Shown here piece by piece: positions 4,628-62,865 of a stretch of 64,000 nucleotides of DNA (position 1 is the stretch's first letter; each line of letters starts with the position of its first letter). This DNA comes from Monoplex corrugatus (lineage: Eukaryota > Mollusca > Gastropoda > Littorinimorpha > Ranellidae). The position numbers and the translations under genes were made by a program. Where the stretch lies: contig JAPXFY010000031.1 of the NCBI GenBank assembly GCA_030674185.1, forward strand, positions 44,859,066 to 44,923,065, given 5' to 3'. Below the pieces are notes generated by a model. That model had not been told where the DNA came from and made no database searches. It was given only the letters and a program-made list of their open reading frames with translations.

Positions 4628-4782
4628 GTTCATCCTGATCTTCTAGTTATTTGTCTTGATATTGCTTAAATAGGGGTTGGGGGTTGCAGAATGCGTGGAC
4701 ATATCTTCTGAGGTTATTGAATTGTATGTTCTTTATTCCTTAGTCCCATCTGTACTCCAACACTGATCAGCGCTAATCTGAA

Positions 4783-4884
4783 TTAACCCTTTGACTCCTT
4801 GGTCTGTCCTCAGCCTGTTTGTCAGATTCAGTGTCAGAGTGTTGGTGTAAGCCGGTGGATAAGCTTAGGGAGTCAAAGGTTGAA
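4783..4884. mobile_element. TTAA-type MITE, about 100 bp
   Basis: It begins TTAACCCTTTGACTCC and ends with the inverted form GGGAGTCAAAGGTTGAA, giving inverted termini of about 13 bp next to TTAA (mutated to TTGA on the right). There is no coding capacity. The same termini occur at 62,412-62,561, so it is a repeated family. A TTAA target is typical of piggyBac-type transposition; assignment to that group is inference. Confidence 0.7.
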
Positions 4885-5195
4885 TTGAAGACTGTTACAG
4901 CTGAAATGTAAAGGGAATTCTTGACAGAAAGACAAGATATTTGTTTATTACTGTTTTTTAGTGAGTTTGTTACAGTTTTATAGTAGAAAAAAATTGTGAT
5001 GGCAAAATACGACATTTGTGCATGAGTTGTGTGGATGTGGGCTGGTAAAGTCATAGGCGTGTATTTCTTTGGAAGATTTGTTAACCTTCTTCAGCAGAAA
5101 ATGATCCGCAACACATTTCAGACAGACGGGAGCAGCTACAAGGATAAAATCTGTGCATTTAGTTAGTGGTTCAGTGGCTCTTGTTTGCGCCCAAG
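4885..5195. other. No gene seen
   Basis: Single-copy-looking, AT-rich sequence, possibly 3' UTR of the gene ending at 4,627. The open frames on the minus strand have no recognisable content. Confidence 0.4.
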
Positions 5196-25115: not shown

Positions 25116-25825
25116 TGGGAGTTTTAATTTTACGGTTCAGTTTTATAGATCTAAAATGGCCGACGTACAGAAAATGTTGGGACATCGTGAATTTGCAACA
25201 TACGAATTTTTTTTATAACGGGGACATTGAAAACAGATTAGCTTTTCTGTTTGTGTTAAAAATTCAAATTTGAGAGATTAGCCTTTCAGTGTGTCAACGA
25301 TTGAAATCCTGAGATTTGCTTATTGGCAAGTTTGTTTGGTGGTTTGTCTTTTTCTGTATTTTTCTCAGTACTAAGTTTAAAATTAATAAAACGATATATA
25401 TATATATATATATATATGATTGTGAGAATTTCTTATAGAAGACATACCTGTACCCGTCTTTACAGCAGATACTACTTAGTACAAACTGATTTCCTCAGTG
25501 TAATATGATTATTGGAAGAGTGAGGGAATCTTGACAAGTCTTGCTGACAAAATACTTTAACGTGGGATTCATCACTTATTGTGGGTGGTCTTCGCAGATG
25601 ATCGTCTGATTGCTGGTTGATTCCTGCCTTAATGTTCATGAAAATAAACAAACAGTGCGTATGTTGGGTTGTTTAATTTGGTCACATCACCTCCTTGACA
25701 CTTAGGCCGTCCTTCAAGCAGCCTGGAAAGAGGCTGTTGCCAAGGAAGACCTTGGTAACTTGTAAGACTATGGCCCTGTCTCACTATGAACTGCTTGTCG
25801 CTACTCCTTGGACTGATGGAGAATC
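25116..25825. other. No gene seen; short (TA)n at about 25,395-25,417
   Basis: Unique sequence leading into the 45-bp array. Frames running from here into the array are extended by the array only. Confidence 0.4.
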
Positions 25826-25829
25826 CTCT

Positions 25830-28800
25830 GCCACAGCACTCCTTAAGTTCCCCAGCAACTGCCATTCTACTAGTGCCACAGCACTCCTTAAGTTCCCCGG
25901 CAACTGCCATTCTACTGGTGCCACAGCACTCCTTAAGTTCCCCGGCAACTGCCATTCTACTGGTGCCACAGCACTCAAGTTCCCCAGCAACTGCCATTCT
26001 ACTAGTGCAACAGCACTCCTTAAGTTCCCCAGCAACTGCCATTCTACTAGTGCCACAGCACTCCTTAAGTTCCCCAGCAACTGCCATTCTACTAGTGCCA
26101 CAGCACTCAAGTTCCCCAGCAACTGCCATTCTACTAGTGCCACAGCACTCCTTAAGTTCCCCAGTAACTGCCATTTTACTAGTGCCACAGCACTCCTTAA
26201 GTTCCCCAGCAACTGCCATTCTACTAGTGCACAAGCACTCCTAAGTTCCCAGCAACTGCCATTCTCTGGTGCCACAGCACTCCTTAAGTTCCCGGCAACT
26301 GCCATTCACTGTGCACAGCACTCAGTCCCAACGCCATTCTATTGCACAGATCTTAAGTCCCGCAACGCTCTACTGTGACGCACCAATTCCCCGAATGCAT
26401 TATGTGACAGCACTCAAGTCCCCAACTGCCTCACATGCCACGACTCCTTAGTCCCGCAACGCCATTCTAGTGCCCAGACTCCAATTCCGCAACTGCCATC
26501 ACAGTCCACAGCTCAGTTCCCAAACTGCATTCGTGCCACAGCATCTAAGTCCCAAACTGCCTTACTGGCCCACATCAGTTCCGACTGCCATTTATAGGCC
26601 ACACACCCTTAATTCCCCAACTGCCATTCTCTTGCCCGCACCAAGTTCCGCAATGCATCTACGTGCCCGCACCAGTTCCCAGCCATACAGTGCACAGCAC
26701 TTAAGTTCCAGCAAGCCATCTCTGTGCCCAGCACCTAAGTCCGCAGCCATTCTAGCCACAGCACAATTCCACAATGCCATTTACTGTGCCACGCACTCTA
26801 GTTCCCCCAACGCCTTATTGCCACAGCCTCCTTAAGTCCCCGCAACTGCATACTGCCCGCACCTTAGTTCCCCACAATGCTCACGTGCAGACCCTTAGTC
26901 CCCACAACTGCCTTATGTGCCACGCACAATTCCGCACGCATTCTACTGCAAGCACTCTAAGTCCGCACTGCCATTCTACGTGACAGATCTTTTCCCGAAT
27001 CATTTACTGTGCCACAGATCCTATTCCCAGCAATGCTTCTCTGTCCACAGATTTAAGTTCAAATATTTATGTGAAATCTTAAGAGCAACTGCCTTTTACA
27101 GTCACAGACCTATTTCCAGAATGATTTAGTGCACGCATCTTGTCACAACTGATTCTTAGTGCCCAGACTCTAGTTCCCCAGCATGATTCACAGTGCAGAT
27201 CTTAATTGCCACACTCCTTCACTAGGCCCAGCACCTAAGTTCCCCAGCAACTGCATTACTATGCCCGCACTCAAGTTCGCAACTCATTACTGGCCACAGC
27301 ACTCCTTAAGTTCCCAGCACTGCCATTCTATGTGCACGCACTCAAGTTCCCCGCAACTGCCATTCTATGGCCACAGCACTCCTTAAGTTCCCGCAACTGC
27401 ATTCTACTGTGCCACAGCACTCAAGTTCCAGCAACTGCCATTCTATAGTGCACAGCACTCCTTAAGTTCCCCAGCAACTGCCATTCTACTAGTGCCACAG
27501 CACTCCTTAAGTTCCCCAGCAACTCATCTACTGTGCCACAGACTCAGTCCCCCAACTGCCATTCTACTGTGCCACAGCACTCCTTAAGTTCCCAGCAACT
27601 GCCATTTATGTGCCACAGCACTCCTTAAGTTCCCCAGCAACTGCATTCTACTGTGCCACAGCACTCCTTAAGTTCCCCAGCAACTGCATTCTACTGTGCC
27701 ACAGCACTCCTTAAGTTCCCGCAACTGCATTTACTTGCCACAGACTCTAAGTCCAGAACTGCATTCTACTAGTGCACAGCACTCAAGTTCCCAGCAACTG
27801 CCATTCTACTGTGCACAGCACTCTTAAGTTCCCCGCAATGCATTTACATGCACACATCTTAAGTTCCAGCAACTGCATTCTACTGTGCACAGCATCCTTA
27901 AGTTCCCCAGCAACTGCCATTTACTGTGCACAGATCCTTAGTTCCGCAACTGCCATTCTACTAGTGCCACAGCACTCCTTAAGTTCCCCAGCAACTGCCA
28001 TTCTATGTGCACAGCATCCTTAAGTCCCAGCAACTGCCATTCTATTCACAGCACTTAGTCCCAGCAACGCATTTACTGTGCACAGATCTTAAGTTCCCGC
28101 ACTGCATTCTATGTGCCACAGCACTCTTAAGTTCCCCGCAACTGCCATTTACTGTGCACGCACTCTTAGTTCCCAACTGCCATTACTGTCAACACACTCC
28201 TTAATTCCCAGCAACTGCATTCTATAGTGCCACAGCCTCCTTAAGTTCCAGCAACTGCCATCACTAGTGCACAGCACCAGTTCCCCAGCAACGCCATTCT
28301 ACTGTGCCAAGCACTCCTTAAGTTCCCCAGCAACTGCCATTTACTAGTGCCACAGCACTCCTTAAGTTCCCAGCAACTGCCATTCTACAGTGCCACAGCA
28401 CTCCTTAAGTTCCCACAACTGCCATTCTACTAGTGCCCAGCACTCCTTAAGTTCCCAGCAACTGCCATCTAAGTCCACACAACTCAAGTTCCCCAGCACT
28501 GCCTTCTTACTAGTGCCACAGCACTCCTAAGTTCCCCAGCAACTGCCATTCTACTTGTGCCACACACTCCTTAAGTTCCCCGCAACTGCCATTCTACTAG
28601 TGCCACAGCACTCCTTAAGTTCCCCGCAACTGCCATTCTACTAGTGCCACAGCACTCCTTAAGTTCCCCAGCAACTGCCATTCTACTGGTGCCACAGCAC
28701 TCCTTAAGTTCCCCAGCAACTGCCATTCTACTGGTGCCACAGCACTCCTTAAGTTCCCCAGCAACTGCCATTCTACTAGTGCCACAGCACTCCTTAAGTT

Positions 28801-30212
28801 CCCCGGCAACTGCCATTCTACTGGTGCCACAGCACTCCTTAAGTTCCCCAGCAACTGCCATTCTACTAGTGCAACAGCACTCCTTAAGTTCCCCAGCAAC
28901 TGCCATTCTACTAGTGCCACAGCACTCCTTAAGTTCCCCAGCAACTGCCATTCTACTAGTGCCACAGCACTCAAGTTCCCCAGCAACTGCCATTCTACTA
29001 GTGCCACAGCACTCCTTAAGTTCCCCAGCAACTGCCATTTTACTAGTGCCACAGCACTCCTTAAGTTCCCCAGCAACTGCCATTCTACTAGTGCCACAGC
29101 ACTCCTTAAGTTCCCCAACAACTGCCATTCTACTAGTGCCACAGCACTCCTTAAGTTCCCCAGCAACTGCCATTCTACTAGTGCCACAGCACTCAAGTTC
29201 CCCAGCAACTGCCATTCTACTAGTGCCACAGCACTCCTTAAGTTCCCCAGCAACTGCCATTCTACTTGTGCCACAGCACTCCTTAAGTTCCCCTGCAACT
29301 GCCATTCTACTAGTGCCACAGCACTCCTTAAGTTCCCCTGCAACTGCCATTCTACTAGTGCCACAGCACTCCTTAAGTTCCCCAGCAACTGCCATTCTAC
29401 TAGTGCCACAGCACTCCTTAAGTTCCCCAGCAACTGCCATTCTACTAGTGCCACAGCACTCCTTAAGTTCCCCAGCAACTGCCATTCTACTGGTGCCACA
29501 GCACTCCTTAAGTTCCCCAGCAACTGCCATTCTACTGGTGCCACAGCACTCCTTAAGTTCCCCAGCAACTGCCATTCTACTAGTGCCACAGCACTCCTTA
29601 AGTTCCCCAGCAACTGCCATTCTACTAGTGCCACAGCACTCCTTAAGTTCCCCAGCAACTGCCATTCTACTGGTGCCACAGCACTCCTTAAGTTCCCCGG
29701 CAACTGCTATTCTACTGGTGCCACAGCACTCCTTAAGTTCCCCAGCAACTGCCATTCTACTGGTGCCACAGCACTCAAGCTCCCCGGCAACTGCCATTCT
29801 ACTAGTGCCACAGCACTCCTTAAGTTCCCCAGCAACTGCCATTCTACTGGTGCCACAGCACTCCTTAAGTTCCCCAGCAACTGCCATTCTACTAGTGCCA
29901 CAGCACTCCTTAAGTTCCCCAGCAACTGCCATTCTACTAGTGCCACAGCACTCCTTAAGTTCCCCGGCAACTGCCATTCTACTAGTGCCACAGCACTCCT
30001 TAAGTTCCCCAGCAACTGCCATTCTACTAGTGCCACAGCACTCCTTAAGTTCCCCGGCAACTGCCATTCTACTAGTGCCACAGCACTCCTTAAGTTCCCC
30101 AGCAACTGCCATTCTACTAGTGCCACAGCACTCCTTAAGTTCCCCGGCAACTGCCATTCTACTAGTGCCACAGCACTCCTTAAGTTCCCCAGCAACTGCC
30201 ATTCTACTACTC
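25830..30212. repeat. 45-bp tandem array (about 97 copies) with a ragged middle
   Basis: The monomer is CCTTAAGTTCCCCAGCAACT, GCCATTCTACTAGTGCCACA, GCACT (45 bp), with a 42-bp variant lacking part of CTCCTT. Copies at 25,830-26,230 and 28,560-30,210 are almost identical. Between 26,290 and 28,550 nearly every copy has scattered single-base deletions and is unreadable in any frame. The clean blocks are open in several frames on both strands (up to 559 codons on minus, 15-residue period) because 42 and 45 are multiples of three. Confidence 0.97.
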
Positions 30213-32035
30213 ATGGGATGAGAAGAAAGGCATGATTTTGATAATTTCATATGCTTCCATATTTTCCCACCTGATCTTGGAGGATGTGTACATTTCCATG
30301 AAAGTTACAAATAGTTGTGGGAAAATCTGGAGTAAATGGCTGCCTTCAGGATTATGAAGCAGGCTTCATCTTTCCACGACATCAGAGGGGCATTTGGGAG
30401 AGGCTGAAGCCAACAGTGTGGAATGTGAAGAGGATGGAATTTTTTTGAAGTGCATGGTTTTTTTGTTTTTGTTTTGTTTCTTGAGTAAATTGATGATACA
30501 CGTCTATCACAGGAGGTTGAGAACTGGACAAGTTGTGACCGGCAGATCACAACCCACAGTGAACACAACACAAGAATCTCCAATGAGAATCAACGATGAC
30601 GGTGAATGTCTGCAGACTGCTTGTTCTTGGTTTGCAAGGATGGACGAGCAGGTATGTCAAAATTTTTATATTTCAGTGAAATGTGTTTTGAACAATATTT
30701 TCTGGAACGAGTTTGCACGTGGTCTGGTTCTTCGGCCCACACTGTGCAGGCATTTTGATGCTGCATCGTCTGCTTCCATTTTCACTGGATTACCTTGCTT
30801 TCCATGTGATGTTGGCAGTTTTTTTTTGGTGGTGGCAGTGGTGGTGCACGTTGGGCATTTTAGCGTTGCTGTAAGCCACCAGACACTGACACTCAGCAGC
30901 ATGTATAAAGCGTTTTTACGTTCTGTGTTTATGCAGTGTTCAGACACAAGCAGAGTTGGATGTATGTTAATCCAGGAGATGGTCACCCTCCACCTATCGA
31001 GCGCAACAGGTAGGGTCAAAGTCAGACATGATTGAAGTCTGGCTTGTGACCAACTTGGCCAGTGCGTCAATTTAAAAGGTTCATGTTTGGATGTCATAAT
31101 TCTTACAGATAACACGGTGGATCCTGTTAGAGTTGTGATGGGGCTTTTTATAGTTGAACATAAATTCCAAGATATAAACTTCATCCCATGTAACATAACT
31201 ACAGTCCAGTTTAAATGTCAGTGTGTGAACTTCATGTGTGGATGTTGGGGAGAGAAGCTTGTAGAGGGAGACCAGGTTGGCACCGAGTTCCATCTTCCAC
31301 ACTGTTTGACCCTGACTGGGGCACAACTTTGTGCGTGTGGCTCCAGTCTACCCAACCCTAACCTTTACCTGACCACCTTCAGCGTTAGGGAAAGCAGAGC
31401 AGTGATGGAGGATCGCCTTCATAATATTGGGCCTGAGACAAGTTGAGGTCTGTGCCATCCTACTGCCCACCACCTTGGGTCGTGGCCAGCTATCACCCTG
31501 TCTTACAGCTAAAGCATTCACCTTCGTACTGTTTAATCTAAATTCAGAGCTGGAGCTGTAGCTGTCTTCCATTCGGCTGTGTGGGTCTGAAGCTGTCTTA
31601 GCTGTGTGACGTATGGTCCAGCCAGTTAACGTGTGGCTGACCGTGTTCATGGTTATGGACAGTAAAGTGAGGTGGACATTGTGATTTCCAATCCACTCAA
31701 CTGAATGGGCACCTGATTGTTCATCAATAAGCTTGCTGTAACCTGTTGAGGCAAAGAATTGCTGAAGTCAGAACAAGTCTCCCTGTGTAGGCCTGGTTAG
31801 GTGGTCTGATCGGCCTTCCCCACACTTAAACGCCACAAACCGCCCTGAAGTGGGCTGGAAACTGAACAAATCTGAAAGCAGCTGGCAATGGACAGTGATG
31901 ACATACATTGGTGGATTACAAACTTGCACCAGCAAACAGCGAAGATTGAAGCGTCGCCCGCCCTGGTTAACAGTTTACTGATGGTGTGCATGAGGGCTGA
32001 GGTGTATGTCTGGATCAAAACAGTTTGAAATGGCC
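30213..32035. other. Unique sequence; one candidate exon, otherwise no gene identified
   Basis: No tandem repeats. The long plus-strand frame 30,394-31,035 contains the candidate exon at 30,513-30,651 but reads through its splice signals and is not accepted as a gene. Confidence 0.4.
30513..30651 (+). CDS. Candidate internal exon, unidentified host gene
   Basis: A 139-bp segment lies between an acceptor (TACACGTCTATCACAG) and a consensus donor (GAGCAG then GTATGT). One frame is open across it and reads like ordinary protein: RLRTGQVVTGRSQPTVNTTQ ... GECLQTACSWFARMDEQ. The family is not recognised. No neighbouring exon was found, so the evidence is splice signals plus composition only. Confidence 0.35.
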
Positions 32036-52205: not shown

Positions 52206-53249
52206 ATGTCGTCCAAGAAGATGGCTGCTAAGGATAGTGCTGCTAAGAGGAAGAAGGATACAATTTCCATAGAATTGAAGGAGATCATAGGAAAACACAA
52301 GCGTGGTCTACATGTGGCTGATCTCGCCAAGTTGTACAGCTGTACGTATCTGCACTATCCTGAAGAAGAAGGAAGAAATTAAGAAGCTTGATGTGGCCAA
52401 AGAAATTACCATGATTACCAAACAACGTCCAAAACTCCTAGATGTTGAGAAGCTGTTGAAGTGGATCAATGAGAAGCAGTTAAAAGGCGATTCTGAAGGT
52501 ATTACGTGCGCAAAGGTAAAGACGCTGTACATGGACCTTGTCAGGAAAACATCAGGCACGTCATCTGAAGATGAGAAGGCATTTAAGGCAAGCCGGGGAT
52601 GGTTTGAGAAATTTAAAACGAGAACTGGCATACACAGTGTAGTGCGACATGGGGAGGCTGCGAGCTCTGATACAGCTGCTGCAGAGAAATTTGTGCCCGA
52701 GTTCCAAGAACTCATTATTAGTGACGGGTCCATACCCCAGCAAGTTTTAATTGTGATGAGACAGGTCTTTTTTGGAAAAAAATGCCTAAGAGGACCTACA
52801 TCACGGCAGAGGAGAAATCTTTGTCTGGCCACATGCCAATGGAGGATAGGCTTACCCTCTTGCTCTGCACCAATGCAAGTGGAGATTACAAGATCAAGCT
52901 GTTGCTTGTCTACCACCCAGAGAATCCACGAGTTTTCAAGAGATGTAAGGTTCAGAAGAAGCAACTGAATATGATGTGGAAGGCCAATAGCAAAGCCTGG
53001 GTCACACAGGAAGTTTTCATTGAGTGGGTCAATGAAGTTTTTGGCCCCTCAGTGAAGAAATATCTTCAAGAGAAGTTGCCACTCAGGGCCTTGCTTGTGT
53101 TAGATAATGCTCCTGCACATCCTCCAGGGCTTGAAGATGATATGTTCCAAGGAAGAATTTCAATTCATCAAGGTCAAGTTTCTTCCTCCCAACACAACTT
53201 CACTCCTCCAAGTCCAACCCATGAGCCAGCAAGTTATTGCCAACTTTAA
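52206..53249 (+). pseudogene. Tigger transposase, N-terminal and catalytic part
   Basis: Cut-and-paste transposase with pogo/CENP-B-type DNA-binding domains and an RNase H-fold catalytic domain. Start ATG at 52,206 (MSSKKMAAKDSAAKRKK). HTH region TISIELKEIIGKHKRGLHVA, then a frameshift near 52,345 and KKKEEIKKLDVAKEITMITK. The Tc5-type HTH is SEDEKAFKASRGWFEKFKTR (about 52,570-52,620). The first catalytic Asp is in CDETG at 52,755-52,757, after a one-base loss in the preceding VFN codons. The second is in VLDNAPAHPPGLED (GAT at 53,103). A further frameshift lies near 53,150. The expected third Asp (the D of a PMDQQ-type motif) is Ser here (PMSQQVIANF, AGC at 53,224). Inactive even without the insertions. 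Confidence 0.93.
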
Positions 53250-54302: not shown

Positions 54303-54914
54303 GAAGCTGTATACGAAGGCCATGTTTCAGAGGTGTTTTGAGGTGACCAAAAATACAAGCCTGACCCTCAGAGAATTCTGGAAGGATGACTTCAATATCC
54401 TACATTGTTTAAATCTTATTGATAAGGGCTGGGAAGGAGTCGCAGTGAGGACCCTGAATTCTGCATGGCGAAAACTGGTGTGAGAGTGTCCCTGACCGAG
54501 ACTTTGAAGGTTTCCGTCCTGAACCTGTGGACCCGACAGTGCAGCTAGTCGATGAAAATGTCTCTCTGGGGCAAACTTTGGGTCTGGAGATGGATGGTGC
54601 TGATGTAGAGGAGTTAGTGCAGGAGCACAACGAAGAACTTATGACCCACGAACTTCTGGAACTTCACAAGGAGCAGCAGCAAAAGGTGGTAGAAGAGCTT
54701 TTGTCAGGGGAGAAGGAGGTAGGGGAGGATGCCCTCTCTTCCAGTGAGATTAAAGAAGTGTTGATAATGTGGGGAAAAAGCGCAACATTTTGTTGAAAAA
54801 CATCACCCTAATAAACTAGCAGTGTCTGGGTGGTGCATGAACTTATTTAAAGAATGCAATGTCTCTTTTCAGGGGCATCCTAAAACGAAGACAGAAGCAA
54901 GTGTCATAACATAA
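54299..54914 (+). pseudogene. Tigger transposase, C-terminal part
   Basis: It resumes as KKLYTKAMFQRCFEVTKNTS, LTLREFWKDDFNILHCLNLI, DKGWEGVAVRTLNSAWRKL, then after a stop and frame change ENVSLGQTLGLEMDGADVEE, LVQEHNEELMTHELLELHKE, EVGEDALSSSEIKEVLIMW, and finally ILKRRQKQVS just before the next element at 54,915. This is the usual order of the Tigger C-terminal region. Confidence 0.9.
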
Positions 54915-54940
54915 CGAGGGGTCCCAGCCAGAAGGTACTA
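54915..54940 (+). repeat. Left terminal inverted repeat of the OTU-DUF7869 element
   Basis: CGAGGGGTCCC, one variable base, GCCAGAAGGT, one variable base, CTA. It pairs with 62,708-62,733 inverted. Confidence 0.88.
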
Positions 54941-55119
54941 ACTGACCATTTTTCACATTTTTACTTTTTTGTTTTAATGGACTCAAAAACATGTTACCTT
55001 TGCTGTAATAGTGGTATTTTTGTGATACAACAATAAATTGATGACTTATTGATCAGAACTTAAAGCAGCCATGTAAAAAAGTGAGCAAGTGTTTACCTCC
55101 AGAGGATACTACGGACTGA

Positions 55120-55193
55120 TAGTACTTTCCGGCACTGACCAAAGTTGACATGCACCGGTGTCTCAGCTGTCTGGTCCCGGCCAGAAAGTACTA
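55120..55193. repeat. Subterminal repeats of the TIR motif
   Basis: 55,120-55,133 is the inverted motif TAGTACTTTCCGGC. 55,173-55,193 is a direct copy, GGTCCCGGCCAGAAAGTACTA with the GTCCC box included. They are likely transposase-binding sites by analogy with other TIR elements. Confidence 0.7.
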
Positions 55194-55499
55194 TGCAGTG
55201 CTAGTATTGAGTGCAGCTGCCAAAGCAGGGGTTAAGTGGCTGCCGGATTGTGTTTAACAGCCTGGTGGTACTTTTAGGCAGGACACCTGAGCTGTGTCGT
55301 ACCACTGTGAGGGATGTTTAAAACAGTCTATCTGATAACCCTGACAGTGGGGGTCTGGAAAGGTACCGTTAGATGCCAGTTTATCTGGCTAACAAATATC
55401 CTGTCTTTGGGACAGGATGTTTAATTATCAACAAAGCATTCCAGAGCTTGTGGCACCCTGAGAAAACTTTCAGGACGACACTTTCTCTTCAGCCTTTGT

Positions 55500-55563
55500 G
55501 AGATTCAGACCTGAGATTCAGACCGTCAGAAGTTTGGACTGCATCAACTATACTCTAGAAACG
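55500..55563 (+). other. 5' untranslated exon of the element gene (start not determined)
   Basis: It ends at a consensus donor, GAAACG then GTAAGT, at 55,563/55,564. The next acceptor, CTCATTGCAG, is at 55,896, just before the ATG-bearing exon. The intron (55,564-55,896) carries an 88-bp GT tract. The 5' limit given is arbitrary. Confidence 0.5.
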
Positions 55564-55622
55564 GTAAGTTTTTCCCTCATACATTTACACTTTAATACCA
55601 TTAAAAATATTATGTATATAAT

Positions 55623-55627
<5 letters not shown>

Positions 55628-55708
<81 letters not shown>

Positions 55709-55713
55709 CGTGT
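55628..55713. repeat. (GT)n microsatellite in intron 1 of the element gene
   Basis: A long pure GT run ending GTGCGTGCGTG. Confidence 0.97.
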
Positions 55714-55896
55714 TGTTTCTTTTGTTGTTGTTTGTTTTCCTTGTGCTGAATGTTAAGTGTTGAAATGAATGATATAATTATTGACGAAATATACATGCAT
55801 TGCTCAACGATTTTTGTTCATGCACACAACTGCAAGACTGACAAAGTACAATAGCATGATGCACACGATTTTGATTGATTAAGGATCTCATTGCAG

Positions 55897-56165
55897 ATAA
55901 CACTCCTGTTCTATCATGGCGGATCGTCCCCAAGCTGAGCAAGATGCCTACGACACACTGACTGGCAGCGATAGTGTCTACCTAAATCTGGCAGCAGCGT
56001 GGTCAGCAGACGTCTTTGGTGTTCCTGAATCAGAATACAACACCTCTGATAATGAGCCTCTCGTCAGGAAAACAATCCATCATGTTGAGTGTGATTCCGT
56101 CAGTTCTGACGAGGAAGCACTCAGCAGGAAAGCCGACATACACTTAGCTGACATGTCCAGTGAAG
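55897..56165 (+). CDS. First coding exon of the OTU-DUF7869 gene
   Basis: After the acceptor at 55,896 the ATG at 55,916 opens 83 codons: MADRPQAEQDAYDTLTGSDS, then an acidic Ser-rich stretch with SDNEPLVRK and DSVSSDEEAL, ending SSE. A donor (GAAG then GTATAT) closes the exon in phase 1, and splicing to 56,606 gives an in-frame EEVCQLSSDTTDD. Without the splice a stop (TGA) comes two codons later. The acidic, probably disordered N-terminus recalls those of piggyBac-type transposases, but no domain is assigned. Confidence 0.65.
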
Positions 56166-56328
56166 GTATATGATTGAAGGATTTATCACCTTTTTAATTA
56201 CCTGAATTTGTTAGCACTTTGTAATATACCATAACTCTGCTTATGTGCATAGAAATCATTATCATCAAGGCTCTGTCATTTCCCATTATTTTCTGTTGGC
56301 ATCACCATAATTCCTTTTCCTCACCAAT

Positions 56329-56373
56329 TGTGTGTGTGTGTGTGTGTGTGTGTGTGAGTGTGAGTGTGAGTGT

Positions 56374-56415
<42 letters not shown>
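56329..56415. repeat. (GT)n microsatellite in intron 2 of the element gene
   Basis: A GT run interrupted by GTGAGTGTGAGTG, ending GTGCGTGCGG. Confidence 0.96.
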
Positions 56416-56417
<2 letters not shown>

Positions 56418-56605
56418 CGGTGCATCGCGTTGCGTTATATTGTGCTATTGTGTGTTATGCTGTAGTGTGTGTTTTGGGGAGGAGGTTGTGCACAAAATGA
56501 GGAAGATTGCAGAAGCATTAGTCTTCTAACTAAGGCACTAACTAACTTAACAAAGTGTGCAGTTTTTAAAAAAAATTAACTGAGGTTGTTTGAATTCTTT
56601 TACAG

Positions 56606-57255
56606 AAGTTTGTCAACTGTCAAGTGACACCACTGATGATGTACCTTTAGCAGCCTTCATGAAGAGGAGACGTCGCAGGAAAACAACAGCAGAAAGAAAC
56701 CTAGAAAGAGCAGAAACTGCAAGTCTGAGGGAGGAAAGCAACTTAGCAAAGGAGAAGATGTCTCATATTAGTCGTCTAAACAATCTGTTAGCAAATGGTT
56801 TCCAGCCAGTTGAAGTGCCACCTGACGGAAACTGCTTTTTTGAGTCATGTTCAAAACATTTTGACTCAATGACTTCGTCCGACTTACGTAGGTGTCTGTG
56901 CGACTACCTTGAAGATGATTTCTCCATCTTTATCGGCTTTCTTGCAGCTGATGACACAACCGACGACAATGAGATACCTAAGGTATTTTCATAACGTTAC
57001 TCAACTCAGATGTCCCGGCATCTGGAGCAACGACGCAGCCGATCTTCTTCCTCTTGCACTTGCCAGCTGGACAAAAAGGACTGTGAAAATCTTTTCCAGT
57101 GATGTTGACAGACCGGTGCTTGAAATACCTCCTTTTGGAAAGTCTGTGGAGCCCAACAACAGCACTGTCATCTCACTGTCATTGCTTGCCCTAAAGGACG
57201 CTCCTCATTATGACGCCTGCATACCCATAGACAGAAACCAACATCCCCAGTAGCA
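56606..57255 (+). pseudogene. OTU-like cysteine protease domain of the element protein
   Basis: After the acceptor (CTTTTACAG) come a basic patch (MKRRRRRKTTAERNLERAE) and an OTU-type domain. Catalytic-loop signature PPDGNCFFESCSKHF (Asp 56,824, Cys 56,833), DLRRCLCDYLEDDFS, then GIWSNDAADLLPLALASWTK and TVKIFSSD, and the His box LKDAPHYDACIP (His 57,206). This order and the D-x-x-C and H spacing fit OTU deubiquitinase-like domains. The frame shifts by one near 56,960 and returns near 57,230, so this copy cannot make the domain. A role in stabilising the transposase or antagonising host ubiquitin is speculation. Confidence 0.8.
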
Positions 57256-58733
57256 CCAAGTCAGGCTGACGCTGAAGGTGGTCAGGCCCCAGAACAATCT
57301 CAAAATTCCCCACAGGAGTTGAATGCCTCTGTGTCTCTTGATGCAACTGAATCTGATGGCGGTCATGTGCCTGTTGACACCACTGAAGGGGGTGCAAACA
57401 GTAGTGACACCCATAGAAGTGTTGAGGACAACGAGCAGTATAATGCATCGCAATGCAAAACTCCTGAACCTTGTGAAACAATCCCTTCTTCACCCACACC
57501 CAGCACTTCTAAATCAACAGATCGAATTCAGACACCAAGAAAAGAAGGATCTTTTCGTACACCCCCTAAAACGAAACTGACAAGAAAAAGGGAAGCCAGA
57601 CCAGAAACATGGAAAAAGAACATCAGAAAAACTCTTCGTTTTCAGAACAAGGGAAACTGGTACCAAAGAAAGTCGTGAAACCCGCAGATTGTTCTCAATG
57701 CAAGCACAAATGCAGCAGAATAACCGAGGAGCAACGTCAGGACATATTCCAGTCATTCTATTCTTTGAACTCATATGACAGCCAGAAAAACTTTGTGTGC
57801 TCAAACGTCCACGAGAAAAAGACAAAAACATATCTCAACGAGAACGACATGCCATGTGAAAAACGTCGAAATGTCAGCCGTGAATTTTTCTTTACCCTTG
57901 AAGGCAAGAAGGAACGAGTCTGCAAAAACTTCTTTCTCTCCACTCTCGGTATTAGTCGCAGTTACCTTGACCACACTGTGAAAAAACAGCAAACATGGCA
58001 TCTTTGTTGGAGAAAACGGTCGCGGTAAACACCAGCCGTACAACAAGACCTCAGTCCAAGCTGTAGAAACAGTCAAACGGCACATTGAGTCTTTTCCGGT
58101 GGTAGAATCCCACTATACAAGGAAAGATACCAAAAGGAAGTATCTCTCATCAAATCTCAATGTGAAAAGAATGTATGAACTGTACAAAGAACAGTGTGTA
58201 GAAGAAGGTACACAGTCAGTAACATCAAAAAAGTACAGAAACATTTTTAATACCAACTACAATCTCTCTTTCCACGTACCAAAAAAAGACCAATGTGCTA
58301 CTTGCACTGCAGCTGCAATCAAGAAAAGTCAAAATACTCTGTCAGAAACCGAGGAGGCATCACACACACAACATCTCTCAAGAAGAGAAACTTCAAGGCA
58401 ACATAAAGCAGCCGACAAGGAGGCTGCTAAAACTGACCCATCACTGCATGTTGTTACAGTGGACATGCAAGCAGTCTTACAATGTCCTTGTGGCCTCGTC
58501 AGCCAACTATATTACAAAAGAAAACTGTGTGTTTATAATTTCACGATCTACTCTTTGTCCGATGGAAGAGCGACGTGTTATACCTGGGATGAGACGGAAG
58601 GAAAGAGGGGGTCGTGTGAGATAGCAAGCTGCCTGTTCAAGTATATTTCGTGTCTTCCGGCCCATGTCTAGCACGTGATCATATACTCTGATTGCTGTGG
58701 CGGCCAAAACAGGAATCAATACTTGACAGCTGC

Positions 58734-58746
58734 TCTACTTTTCGCC
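58734..58746 (+). repeat. Left 13-bp target duplication of the Penelope-like element
   Basis: TCTACTTTTCGCC, encoding LLFA in the host frame, is repeated exactly at 60,526-60,538. Confidence 0.92.
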
Positions 58747-58795
58747 AGATCCAAAACAAGAGTGACTGCCCGCGCCCAAGCAAACACAAACCAGA

Positions 58796-58919
58796 AGAAC
58801 AAGAAAACCAATGTAAGCGCGTCTCCAACAAGACAAAACAAAACAAGCGCAAATTTTCGGCCAACTAGCCTTTGTCAAGCGCGAACGCACGGTCACAGAC
58901 AAATCACAGACACCAAACA
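58796..58919 (-). repeat. Left arm of the 124-bp perfect inverted repeat
   Basis: Inverse of 60,405-60,528 with no mismatch found by eye. Contains the GGCC-loop motif discussed under the hammerhead-like finding. Confidence 0.93.
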
Positions 58920-58930
58920 TGGGTACTAAG

Positions 58931-60098
58931 ATGGGCACTAAGATGGGCCCCAGCTATGCCTGCTTATTCATGGGATATTTGGAGGAACATATCCTACAAC
59001 AATACAAGAAACCCAAACCTGAATTATACAATTTACAAAAGATACATAGACGATTGCATTGGCATGACATCCCTCGATCATGACCAACTTTTACAATTCA
59101 TCCACTACGTCCAAACGTTTCACCCATCCATCAAGTTCACATATGAAATTTCAAACACATCCATAAGCTTCCTGGATATCGAAGTTTCCCTTCAATCTGA
59201 ACAACTAGTCACTACAGTCCACTACAAACCTACAGACTCACATTCCTACCTGGACTACCAATCATCTCACACTTCCAACACCAGAAACAGCATTCCCTAC
59301 TCGCAGTTCTTGAGACTACAACGCCTCTGCTCAGACGAAGACAATTTTCGGGACAAAGCAGTTGAAATGACTAGATTTTTCCTGCGCAGACATTACCCAC
59401 CCGAGGTCATCAATGAAGCCCGGAAAAAAGTCAGCTCTGTCTCTCGGCCAAATGCCCTCCATTCAAAGCCCAAAGCTGTCACAGAGGATCGGCCAGTCCT
59501 CAGTCTAGTTTACCACCCGTCCGTGCACCTCATAAAATGGATCATCTTGTCCAACTGGAACATTTTGCGATCCAGTCCCACTACAGGTGAAACCTTTGAC
59601 AAGCGCCCTTTGATCGTCTACAAGAGAGACACCAATCTCCGCGACTTGCTGGTGCATTCGAATCTCAGCAAACCAGTCAGCCAACCACCAGGAACCTCTC
59701 CATGCAACAAACCTAAATGCAAGACTTGTCCTTTCTTGTGCTCAGCCACCACAGTCAAAGGCCCCAAATCTCATATGAGAATTACAAAACATTTCAACTG
59801 TCAAACTTATAACATAGTCTACTTGATCAGCTGCTCTAAATGTTCCCTATTGTATATTGGTGAAACTGGACGCACCCTTGACACACGTTTCAAAGAACAC
59901 TTGGCTGATATCCGCCACCAAAGGGATAAAACTATCCCCAATCACTTCAACCAATCAGACCACTCAATCAATGACATCCGAGTGAAAGGTCTGTGGCTTC
60001 TACACAATAACAGCACCATAGACAGGAAAGACAGAGAATCCCACCTCATAAATAAACTTGGAACACGCAAACCACATGGTCTTAACGACAAACCATGA
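58931..60098 (+). pseudogene. Penelope-like RT fragment plus GIY-YIG endonuclease
   Basis: RT motif GTKMGPSYACLFMGYLEEH (58,934-58,990) is in one frame. After a frameshift near 59,010 the main frame continues with YKRYIDDCIG, the catalytic YIDD at about 59,041, and SISFLDIEVSL, and is open to TGA at 60,098. The C-terminal GIY-YIG endonuclease reads YNIVYLISCSKCSLLYIGET, then GRTLDTRFKEHLADI, preceded by a Cys-rich linker (CNKPKCKTCPFLC). RT motifs before MGTKMGP are missing, so it is 5'-truncated. The frame given by the ATG at 58,872 reads through the inverted repeat and is not the natural start. Confidence 0.9.
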
Positions 60099-60404
60099 GT
60101 AACAAAATTCAGACATGCCGTTTCATGTCTCTTTCTGTTCCCACGCCTACCAGATTCTTGGCACCGGGCACAATCTACTCCCTTATCTCTTGGCTCTTGC
60201 CCTGTGCCTTCTTCAGAACAGGACTATACCGATATAGCATGGCCATTTCTCAAAATTGTAGAACTCATCTCACTTCCCTTTTGACATCACAGTTGCCTCC
60301 CCTCTCCCCTTTTCTTACTACTGCTCATGATGACATGGGCATTCCATCTCTCACCCACTGGACGAGGCGGCAGGGAAGTTTTTAGTCCCGTTTTTATTAT
60401 CCAT

Positions 60405-60528
60405 TGTTTGGTGTCTGTGATTTGTCTGTGACCGTGCGTTCGCGCTTGACAAAGGCTAGTTGGCCGAAAATTTGCGCTTGTTTTGTTTTGTCTTGTTGGA
60501 GACGCGCTTACATTGGTTTTCTTGTTCT
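60405..60528 (+). repeat. Right arm of the 124-bp inverted repeat, Penelope 3' end
   Basis: Holds CTTGACAAAGGCTAGTTGGC followed by CGAAAATTTGCGC, a motif also seen at 19,846, 6,927 and (inverted) 6,240. It overlaps the right target duplication by three bases. Confidence 0.93.
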
Positions 60529-60538
60529 ACTTTTCGCC
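60526..60538 (+). repeat. Right 13-bp target duplication of the Penelope-like element
   Basis: Identical to 58,734-58,746. The host frame resumes as LLFAVNTLPSIK. Confidence 0.92.
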
Positions 60539-61145
60539 GTCAACACGCTACCCAGCATCAAGACTATCACACAAAAGTATCTTGAATCAGGTCACACTCA
60601 GATGGAATGTGATTCAATGCACGCTGCGATTTCAGCTGCAAAGAAGAGCACCCCCATTTATGTTCCATCTGAGTGGGACATCGTCTTCAGGTTGGCACGA
60701 CGGCTAAACCGCTACAACGTTGTGCCAATCGGTCACGAATCGTTTTACAATTTCAAGACGCTGGCCTCATCATACATCAGAAATACAAAAACAGACACAA
60801 ACGGACATAGAGTCAACTGGCTGAACATCCGCTTGATCCAAGTGACCAAAGGGATTGACGACATCATGCTTTTCAAGACCAACATGAATGATGAAAGTAT
60901 GAGAGTCTTGAGGCTTGTGGGATCTTCCAGACGGGGACGACAAGAGCTGCCCAAAGTCCTACATCAATTGTATCACGATAAACTGCCAGTGTCTGAAGCC
61001 AAGAAAAGGGACCTGCTGTCACTGTGCACAACTGGTGTCATCCCGAAGACCTATCAGTTTCTATCGGGATCTTCCAGCATCTTCATCTGCAGACGACAAA
61101 TTGCCAGAGCCTGACGTCAAGGACTCAGAGAGTGACACAGACTAA

Positions 61146-61690
61146 AGTCTGGATCGGTCTCTGTCAGTGCCTGTGAAGGCTGTAATGACCAGTGACGCTA
61201 CGACTTTTCCATCAGTGAATTTCGGTGACAGCTATTGGAACTGAAAAAGTACAAACTGTGTGACCTGGCTGATTTTAACATGGATGATCGTGTTTAATTG
61301 TGTGTATTGAAGATTTGAACTGAATGCGACTGGGAACAAAATGCAAACTGACAACACTGACACAGATTTCACTGGTGACATTTACATGTATCACTTGTCA
61401 TGGTTTTGGCTGTCAGTTAAGTGACACTGAAGACAATAAAGTGTACCGCAAAATAAACAGCGAGGAAAGTCAGTGAAAGTGAATAGTGCACAGAAAAAAG
61501 TGACACATATACAGTGAAAATTTGAAGCTGTAATGTGATTATAAAAAAGGACCTTTGTGAGTGACAGTGGACAGTATGATATTGATATGGATTTAACACT
61601 TGTTACTGCTGTTCAGTGAGTAATTTACAATGTTTGGCATGCCTTAGTGAATGACAATACGTCAGCATGTAACACACACACATACACGCA
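61146..61690 (+). other. 3' flank of the DUF7869-like gene, no further gene
   Basis: AT-rich non-coding sequence. AATAAA occurs at about 61,435 (GACAATAAAGTG) and is a plausible poly(A) signal for the element transcript. Confidence 0.4.
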
Positions 61691-61694
61691 CACT

Positions 61695-61696
<2 letters not shown>

Positions 61697-61775
<79 letters not shown>
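61697..61775. repeat. (GA)n microsatellite inside the element
   Basis: A pure GA run of about 78 bp after a short CA stretch. Confidence 0.98.
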
Positions 61776-61777
<2 letters not shown>

Positions 61778-61970
61778 TTGCGTTGAGCATTTGTAATGAT
61801 AATGTCAGAAAAGTAAATTTTGCAATGTCTTTCAGCTTCGCCTTTGTGTTGTCAAACATAACAGCTTATAGCTCCGTTAGTCCAATGGCTGATTTCAGTA
61901 ATATTTCCTGCCAGGATGTAATTCTTGATCTCTAGAAGTTTTGTGCTCCGTTACATTCCTGAGAGTGCTG

Positions 61971-61996
61971 CCAACCAGAAAGTACTATGTAGCAGT
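61971..61996 (+). repeat. Right subterminal copy of the TIR motif
   Basis: CCAACCAGAAAGTACTATGT then AGCAGT matches 55,181-55,199 (CCAGAAAGTACTATGCAGT) in direct orientation. A weaker GGCCAGAAAGGAAGGC is at about 62,239. Confidence 0.7.
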
Positions 61997-62411
61997 GACA
62001 GAAACAGACACCAGCTGCACTCAGGTTTCCCCTTCCCCCGTCCTCGGACCACACAGTACCAACAGCAGTTAGCATTTCACAGCAGCAGTTTTGTGATCTC
62101 CCAGCCCCTCCCTCTGTCCACCAGCGAGTACTACCAACAGCTAACCTAAATCAGCATCGCGCTGGCGCTGCAGATATTAGTTACGGATGCCTGCTTTCTG
62201 GTTCTATTTATCAATAGTCCTTTCCGTCACTTAGCTGAGGCCAGAAAGGAAGGCTTGTGCATGAGTGCCAAAGAGTGCCAACACCAACATAATCTAATTT
62301 ATTTTTATACATAAATAGCTGCTGCTCTGAACTCAACTTTTTGTTTCTTTAAGAGATGTATAAATTCTGTCAAAAATGCCAGCATACCATTACCAGCGTC
62401 CTCCCGTGTAA

Positions 62412-62561
62412 TTAACCCTTTGACTCCCGCATCATGTCCACTGGTATCCTGCATTGCCAACCATGCTAGCAAAGCAAAAACTTGACCCTTTGATTCCCTC
62501 ACCCTATCCACCAGCTTCCAGCAGGAAGCTGGTGGATAGGGTTCGGGAGTCAAAGGGTTAA
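62412..62561. mobile_element. TTAA MITE with 14-bp perfect termini, plus extra right-end copies to 62,645
   Basis: TTAA then CCCTTTGACTCCCG on the left; CGGGAGTCAAAGGG then TTAA on the right (62,558-62,561). Its right half (62,486-62,561) is itself a hairpin centred on GCTTCCAGCAGGAAGC. Two more right-end-like segments follow (GGATAGGGTTCGGTAGTCAA and GGATAGCGTTCGGGAGTCAA). Same family as 4,783-4,884. Confidence 0.8.
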
Positions 62562-62707
62562 TTTTTTTTGCAGTCGGCGGATAGGGTTCGGTAGTCAAAG
62601 GGATAATTTTTTTTGCAGTTGGTGGATAGCGTTCGGGAGTCAAAAGTATTTCATTTGTAGGTAGCTAACTTTCAAACGCCATTTTCTCAAAAGTGACCTC
62701 TGAAGCA

Positions 62708-62733
62708 GTAGAACCTTCTGGCAGGGACCCCTC
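62708..62733 (-). repeat. Right terminal inverted repeat of the OTU-DUF7869 element
   Basis: TAGAACCTTCTGGCAGGGAC then CCCTCG, inverse of the left terminus with two mismatches. ATAA follows directly. Confidence 0.88.
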
Positions 62734-62865
62734 GATAAGTTCTTGGTGAAGCTACCCAAAAGACAGTCAAGTGATCCTGAACCACAACCTTGTCCCAGTG
62801 GGGTAAAATTCCCAAGAAGAGAGAGCCCTCCTGAATCAGAGGGGGATTCTCCTTCCCCACAGTAA
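62734..62865 (+). pseudogene. Tigger transposase, last codons
   Basis: DKFLVKLPKRQSSDPEPQPC, PSGVKFPREREPPESEGDSP, SPQ then TAA at 62,863-62,865. It continues the C-terminus cut at 54,914. Confidence 0.88.

Follow-up and report, generated by a model that had tools for sequence, protein, structure and literature searches.

A young transposon family of the gastropod Monoplex corrugatus carries a single OTU-DUF7869 gene as its likely transposase gene

Introduction

Sola2-type transposons of slime moulds duplicate four AT-rich AWWT target bases (ATAT, AAAT, ATTT), end in terminal inverted repeats (TIRs) of 12, 13 or 21 bp, encode a transposase of 888 amino acids and are accompanied by transposase-deleted derivatives (available part of PMC3627910). 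OTU proteases have been described in Ginger1 transposons and in some Helitrons (available part of PMC2836005). Here we analyse a stretch of 64,000 nucleotides (the window) from Monoplex corrugatus (assembly GCA_030674185.1, contig JAPXFY010000031.1, positions 44,859,066 to 44,923,065), in which a TIR-flanked element carries a gene joining an OTU-like cysteine protease to a DUF7869 domain. A literature search found no paper mentioning DUF7869 or such an element, which is no proof of its being unpublished, and the term 'OTU' has a count of zero in the main text of PMC10294476, a paper on transposons of bivalves.

In this study, we show by comparison of genomic copies that the segment moved as a unit, that it duplicated four bases, that its family multiplied recently and that a copy without the predicted catalytic half spread. 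Very likely the segment is a broken-gene copy of a young TIR DNA transposon family whose single OTU-DUF7869 protein moves it by cut-and-paste, DUF7869 being the predicted RNase H-fold transposase. An earlier note, made from the letters of the window, had proposed a new transposon family. This stands at the family level only, since the duplications match those printed for Sola2 (available part of PMC3627910).

Results

Ends of the element and empty sites

The element and its surroundings are as follows.

52725..53249, + strand: DDE_1 part of a Tigger-type host transposon, in whose 3' part the element sits (Pfam, empty sites)
54911..54914, no strand: left target-site duplication ATAA (flank comparison)
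54915..62734, + strand: whole element, window copy
54915..54940, + strand: 5' TIR CGAGGGGTCCCAGCCAGAAGGTACTA (TIR pairing, genome-wide terminal pattern)
62709..62734, - strand: 3' TIR, reading CGAGGGGTCCCTGCCAGAAGGTTCTA (TIR pairing, genome-wide terminal pattern)
62735..62738, no strand: right target-site duplication ATAA (flank comparison)

Members of the family measure roughly 6 kb; the window copy is longer (7,820 bp) and includes a nested insert of 1,792 bp and about 250 bp of repeats absent from other copies. The earlier note had placed the element at 54915..62733; its left end is correct and the right end lies one base further. The 26-bp TIRs pair with the two mismatches that had been noted, at positions 12 and 23, and ATAA is found on each side as described. 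A terminal core pattern of 21 bases (up to 3 mismatches) matches twice in the window, both times exactly, and had no match in 100 shuffles.

The insertion lies, as the note had recognised, in the gene of another transposon, where DDE_1 matches at 52725-53246 (E 1.3e-23); we follow the note in calling this host a Tigger. Both flanks were joined by one ATAA and compared against the window's own genome. The junction was spanned by 18 of the 40 scored matches (17 at 91-93% identity, one at 82%), and the first six of these, read base by base, all run without a gap as ...GTCATTAGATAAGTTCTTGGTG... with a single (G)ATAA. Therefore the segment arrived in one piece and duplicated four bases on entry. 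Removal of the element lets the host frame continue, as had been claimed, with one in-frame TAA in the window (KQVS*HKFLVKLPKR). Because the six paralogues read TCATTAGATAAG at this place, the stop reflects a single-base change in the Tigger copy of the window and not an effect of the element.

Copies across the genome

The 3.02-Gb genome from which the window comes was searched with the element's first 686 bases. Of 88 candidates, 40 were scored; these comprise the window, 24 near-complete copies (91-97% identity), one shorter copy (91%) and 14 distant ones (70-78%). Twenty of the near-complete copies were fetched for analysis of ends and duplications. Both ends lie at identical positions in 16 of them and the left end is present in the other four, i.e. 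the ends are fixed and do not vary around the gene. Duplications were counted in these 16 copies and the window; L017 (right end N) and L018, L020 and L025 (no usable right end) were dropped.

Equal 4-bp flanks occur in 16 of the 17 (ATAT 11, AAAT 3, ATAA 1, CGGT 1), as against at most 14 in 10,000 trials of shuffled flank pairing, and over 5 bp none of the 17 match. In 14 of the 17 the flanks are ATAT or AAAT on each side. The unequal flanks, TTTT and AAAT, belong to L011. This deletion derivative is 99.9% identical to another, L022, which is flanked by AAAT on both sides; recombination between copies might explain the mismatch.

A 22-base terminal pattern has 111 exact matches in the genome, the reversed control none. 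Among the 100 places listed of these 111, 30 inverted pairs lie less than 10 kb apart, each consisting of one A-type and one T-type end. L035 and L036, two diverged copies that lack a long gene, are each flanked by ATAT at either end and have TIRs much like those above. Thus the further TIR-flanked copies, 4-bp duplications and empty sites for which the earlier note had suggested looking are all present. A duplication of constant length, fixed TIRs and empty sites are the marks of a cut-and-paste TIR DNA transposon.

Full-length copies and deletion derivatives

All but one of the 20 fetched copies could be assigned to one of two classes. Six are full-length in structure (L016, L019, L020, L023, L024 and L028, L020 without a detected right end), and the five compared are 98.6-99.8% identical with gap columns excluded; the identity tables leave out L010, L017, L018, L020 and L025. 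Thirteen are deletion derivatives, two of which (L017 and L025) were classed by BLAST only, and L018 is unplaced and outside the tally. In all 11 derivatives read, the deletion junction is at the same place, with small sequence variants, and removes codons 436-835 of the 937-codon frame of L024, including all three acidic motifs described below; ten of the 11 have the 4-bp duplication. The common junction therefore points to one deleted founder that came to occupy many sites, as would be expected with transposase supplied in trans. There was no sign of purifying selection on the OTU part in these 11 derivatives, their private substitutions being 3 silent and 15 replacement where 28% silent are expected, so that a function for the derivative-encoded OTU is unsupported.

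The transposon also contains a variable minisatellite. Its 55-bp unit, located after the gene (4712-4986 of the L024 element), is repeated in L016, L023, L024 and L028 and present once each in the window copy and L019.

The OTU-DUF7869 gene and its protein

L016 keeps a frame of 927 codons in the order OTU, linker, DUF7869. The frames of L023 and L024 are open with a shifted C-terminus and those of L019 and L028 interrupted. In L016 and L024 this is the only long frame (no other exceeds 133 codons). In the window the gene is broken by several frameshifts and by the nested insert:

55916..56165, + strand: predicted exon 1 (MADRPQ...), splice sites placed by eye; by eye its residues resemble the intact family B N-terminus
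56606..61145, + strand: predicted exon 2, broken, its end placed by eye from intact copies
56824..57226, + strand: OTU-like cysteine protease region, DGNCFF to HYDACIP (Pfam; the stretch crosses a frameshift)
58456..58470, + strand: DUF7869 motif 1, TVDMQ, predicted first catalytic Asp
58684..58716, + strand: DUF7869 motif 2, YSDCCGGQNRN, predicted second catalytic Asp
58747..60538, + strand: nested Penelope-like insert, one 13-bp duplication copy included; own ORF, not part of the transposon
60590..60613, + strand: DUF7869 motif 3, GHTQMECD, predicted third catalytic acid (E or D)

The division into two exons is a prediction; family B, described below, has a similar N-terminus within a single open frame. 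Pfam, applied to the L016 protein with E up to 0.5, lists OTU followed by DUF7869, in agreement with the earlier note, and no integrase family. The PF25273 (DUF7869) scores, to be read against the curated value of 26, are 20.4 for L016, 17.5 for family B, and 21.0, 26.5 and 31.6 for the relatives P0003, P0018 and P0096, of which the last two reach that value. The DUF7869 core has a predicted RNase H-like fold with invariant acids at the expected places in strand and helix. Given this model, the further copies and their fixed ends, none of the three outcomes that the note had named as speaking against its reading was observed, and the transposase role for which it had named DUF7869 as a candidate is favoured. 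The OTU domain has an OTU fold with catalytic Cys and His, as predicted on a relative.

That this is the only gene, as the note had it, holds for the element itself; the nested insert has its own open reading frame (ORF). This insert sits within the DUF7869 part of the gene and is flanked by a 13-bp duplication, TCTACTTTTCGCC, where L024 has an uninterrupted site. It has inverted arms of 127 nt (126 of 127 paired), and its ORF (58869-60098) contains a GIY-YIG domain by Pfam and a YIDD reverse-transcriptase motif read by eye. Judged by eye, it is Penelope-like.

Subterminal motifs and repeats

The internal copies of the terminal motif reported in the earlier note are present: GCCAGAAAGTACTA (up to 2 mismatches) matches five times in the window where 0.47 are expected, two of the five being in the TIRs themselves. 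The remaining three are:

55120..55133, - strand: subterminal GCCAGAAAGTACTA copy, candidate transposase-binding site
55180..55193, + strand: subterminal GCCAGAAAGTACTA copy, candidate transposase-binding site
61974..61987, + strand: subterminal GCCAGAAAGTACTA copy (motif match)

In L024 the motif matches seven times near the ends, inside the outermost 270 and 520 bases or so; two of these matches are in the TIRs, and simple shuffles give an expectation of 0.055.

At about 62390-62643, within its right end, the window copy has tandem repeats of 45 bp together with inverted repeats that are nested. Most of this sequence is missing from the right ends of other copies, and in L009, L012, L015 and L016 repeats of a similar kind are found beyond the element ends. 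Elsewhere in the window, at 25632-26375 and 28574-30304, both strands have long open frames; these consist of a tandem repeat, which by eye is a minisatellite and not a gene.

A second family and wider distribution

A protein search in the same genome found further OTU-DUF7869 relatives, down to 35% identity. One group, family B, is 49% identical in protein to the family of the window (family A), and three copies were fetched. Their ends, CGAGGGTTGCCCGGATAAACCTCGTAT, are 27 bp long with one mismatch between the two, and all three copies have ATAT on both sides. L037 has an intact frame of 999 codons counted from the first Met; it is 99.6% identical to L038 and 99.7-99.8% identical to L040 in the two aligning stretches, the comparison excluding a stretch of N within the first half of L040. 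Between the families the RNase H core is best conserved (120 of 171 residues identical, as against 70 of 162 in OTU), and the gene, the CGAGGG ends and the AWWT duplications are kept together in both. At the divergent locus L039 (37% identity) a TIR pair was looked for and none found. An OTU-DUF7869 match at G000:C34:3069723-3071390 lies in a reported open frame of 4,033 residues, which a run of N such as that in L040 may have produced artificially.

Three protein searches returned 343, 451 and 435 relatives, of which the best 120 each were listed. Those named include molluscs, insects, echinoderms, a scorpion, a crustacean, a nemertean, a fish and a few entries filed under bacterial metagenome-assembled genomes (MAGs). 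Among the best 120 of the 343, the closest named relatives are Littorina and Batillaria, 34 carry the Pfam OTU label, and a precomputed Pfam DUF7869 label is found on relatives at up to 58% identity. Alignment A1 holds 95 of 120 listed relatives and alignment A3 holds 53 picked for OTU label or length. Three DUF7869 proteins filed under MAGs of Thiodiazotropha and Sedimenticola (P0041, P0047, P0132) are likely contamination from the bivalve host. Peptide patterns and tblastn found no relative in bacterial and archaeal genomes, nor in viral contigs (queried with a single sequence or an alignment), though distant ones could be missed in both. A PDB sequence search gave no relative of the protein.

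Discussion

In the mechanism we propose, the DUF7869 half would recognise the TIRs and the repeated GCCAGAAAGTACTA motifs as binding sites, cut at the CGAGGG ends and join them at a 4-bp stagger, with a preference for AWWT targets. Catalysis would be carried out by the D of VTVDMQ, the D of YSDCC and the E or D of GHTQMECD. The N-terminal OTU domain, a putative active deubiquitinase, may take ubiquitin off the transposase or off its surroundings; it may thereby protect the transposase or alter ubiquitin at the donor or target.

We give nearly an even chance to a broader proposal, that DUF7869 is the catalytic core of an undescribed eukaryotic DDE/D transposase superfamily found across animals, among them molluscs, insects and echinoderms, and that its fusion to an OTU deubiquitinase, kept catalytically intact, took place in a lineage most apparent among molluscs. 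In the two families measured here the ends are CGAGGG and the 4-bp targets AWWT, and the OTU part may aid transposition by editing ubiquitin. Alternatively, the element could belong to Sola2, DUF7869 being the Pfam name for all or part of the Sola2 transposase, with OTU added; we see this as a serious possibility, somewhat short of even. The printed AWWT duplications fit the ATAT and AAAT flanks (14 of 17 in family A, ATAT in 3 of 3 in family B), the 888-residue transposase compares with about 1,000 residues here, and transposase-deleted derivatives are printed as well (available part of PMC3627910). However, at 26 and 27 bp the TIRs here slightly exceed the printed range, which is not known to be a fixed limit, the literature found does not tie DUF7869 to Sola2, and no Sola name occurs among the best 120 relatives in each of the three listings, where most rows are nameless. 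The Sola group is said to use a DDD triad, which D-D-D here would fit.

Passenger genes do occur in transposons, and an intact gene is not needed for movement of the deletion derivatives, so OTU-DUF7869 could be a passenger in an element moved in trans by another transposase. We consider this very improbable, as the gene is the only long frame of L016 and L024, an RNase H fold including invariant acids is predicted for its core, and two families at 49% protein identity jointly keep gene, ends and duplications. An integrated virus or Polinton-like element, with OTU as anti-host protease and DUF7869 as integrase, would have its 26-bp TIRs and 4-bp duplication against it, as well as the missing second long frame in L016 and L024 and the absence of relatives from the viral contigs searched. 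OTU proteases are known in viruses, and a Foldseek search of viral structures gave one match below E 1e-3, a weak one to a Harvfovirus fragment (E 3.3e-5, TM 0.15); we regard this origin as extremely unlikely.

If DUF7869 is tied to defined ends, duplications and an RNase H fold, as our favoured transposase reading implies, the copy numbers of such genes would be explained and annotators could mask them as transposons. The listed animal proteins are named only uncharacterised, hypothetical or domain-containing, and a widespread protein family would gain a likely job. The near-identical copies of this young family make transposition directly testable. With an OTU domain on the one polypeptide, these elements would join Ginger1 as another case of a transposase linked to a deubiquitinase, which raises the testable question whether transposons evade ubiquitin-dependent control. 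With OTU already described in Ginger1 and some Helitrons (available part of PMC2836005), the earlier note's statement that the protease is unusual for a DNA transposon has to be toned down.

Among known systems, Sola2 shares with these elements the 4-bp AWWT duplications, short TIRs, a long transposase of about 900 residues and deletion derivatives, while its printed TIRs are 12-21 bp long, as against 26-27 bp, and Fanzor1 is found there where an OTU domain is found here (available part of PMC3627910). DDE/D transposases and retroviral integrases (mariner/Metnase, HIV integrase) resemble DUF7869 in the predicted RNase H fold and suitably placed acids; no sequence similarity was found, and the present protein differs in its long N-terminal part and in having its own Cys-rich motifs. 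piggyBac and Kolobok elements duplicate TTAA, which none of the 17 copies does, and membership in these groups was rejected. Ginger1 likewise has 4-bp duplications, a single transposase gene with OTU in part of its families, and animal hosts including the mollusc Aplysia, whereas its ends are TGTNR and not CGAGGG, its targets CCGG or CCGT and not mostly ATAT or AAAT, and its Gypsy-type integrase precedes OTU where here OTU precedes DUF7869 (available part of PMC2836005). The ATAT/AAAT duplications, the CGAGGG terminus and the lack of a Pfam integrase family in the L016 protein set the element apart from Ginger1. In Pfam, PF25273 is the same domain with no function stated; the present families link it to mobile DNA whose ends are defined.

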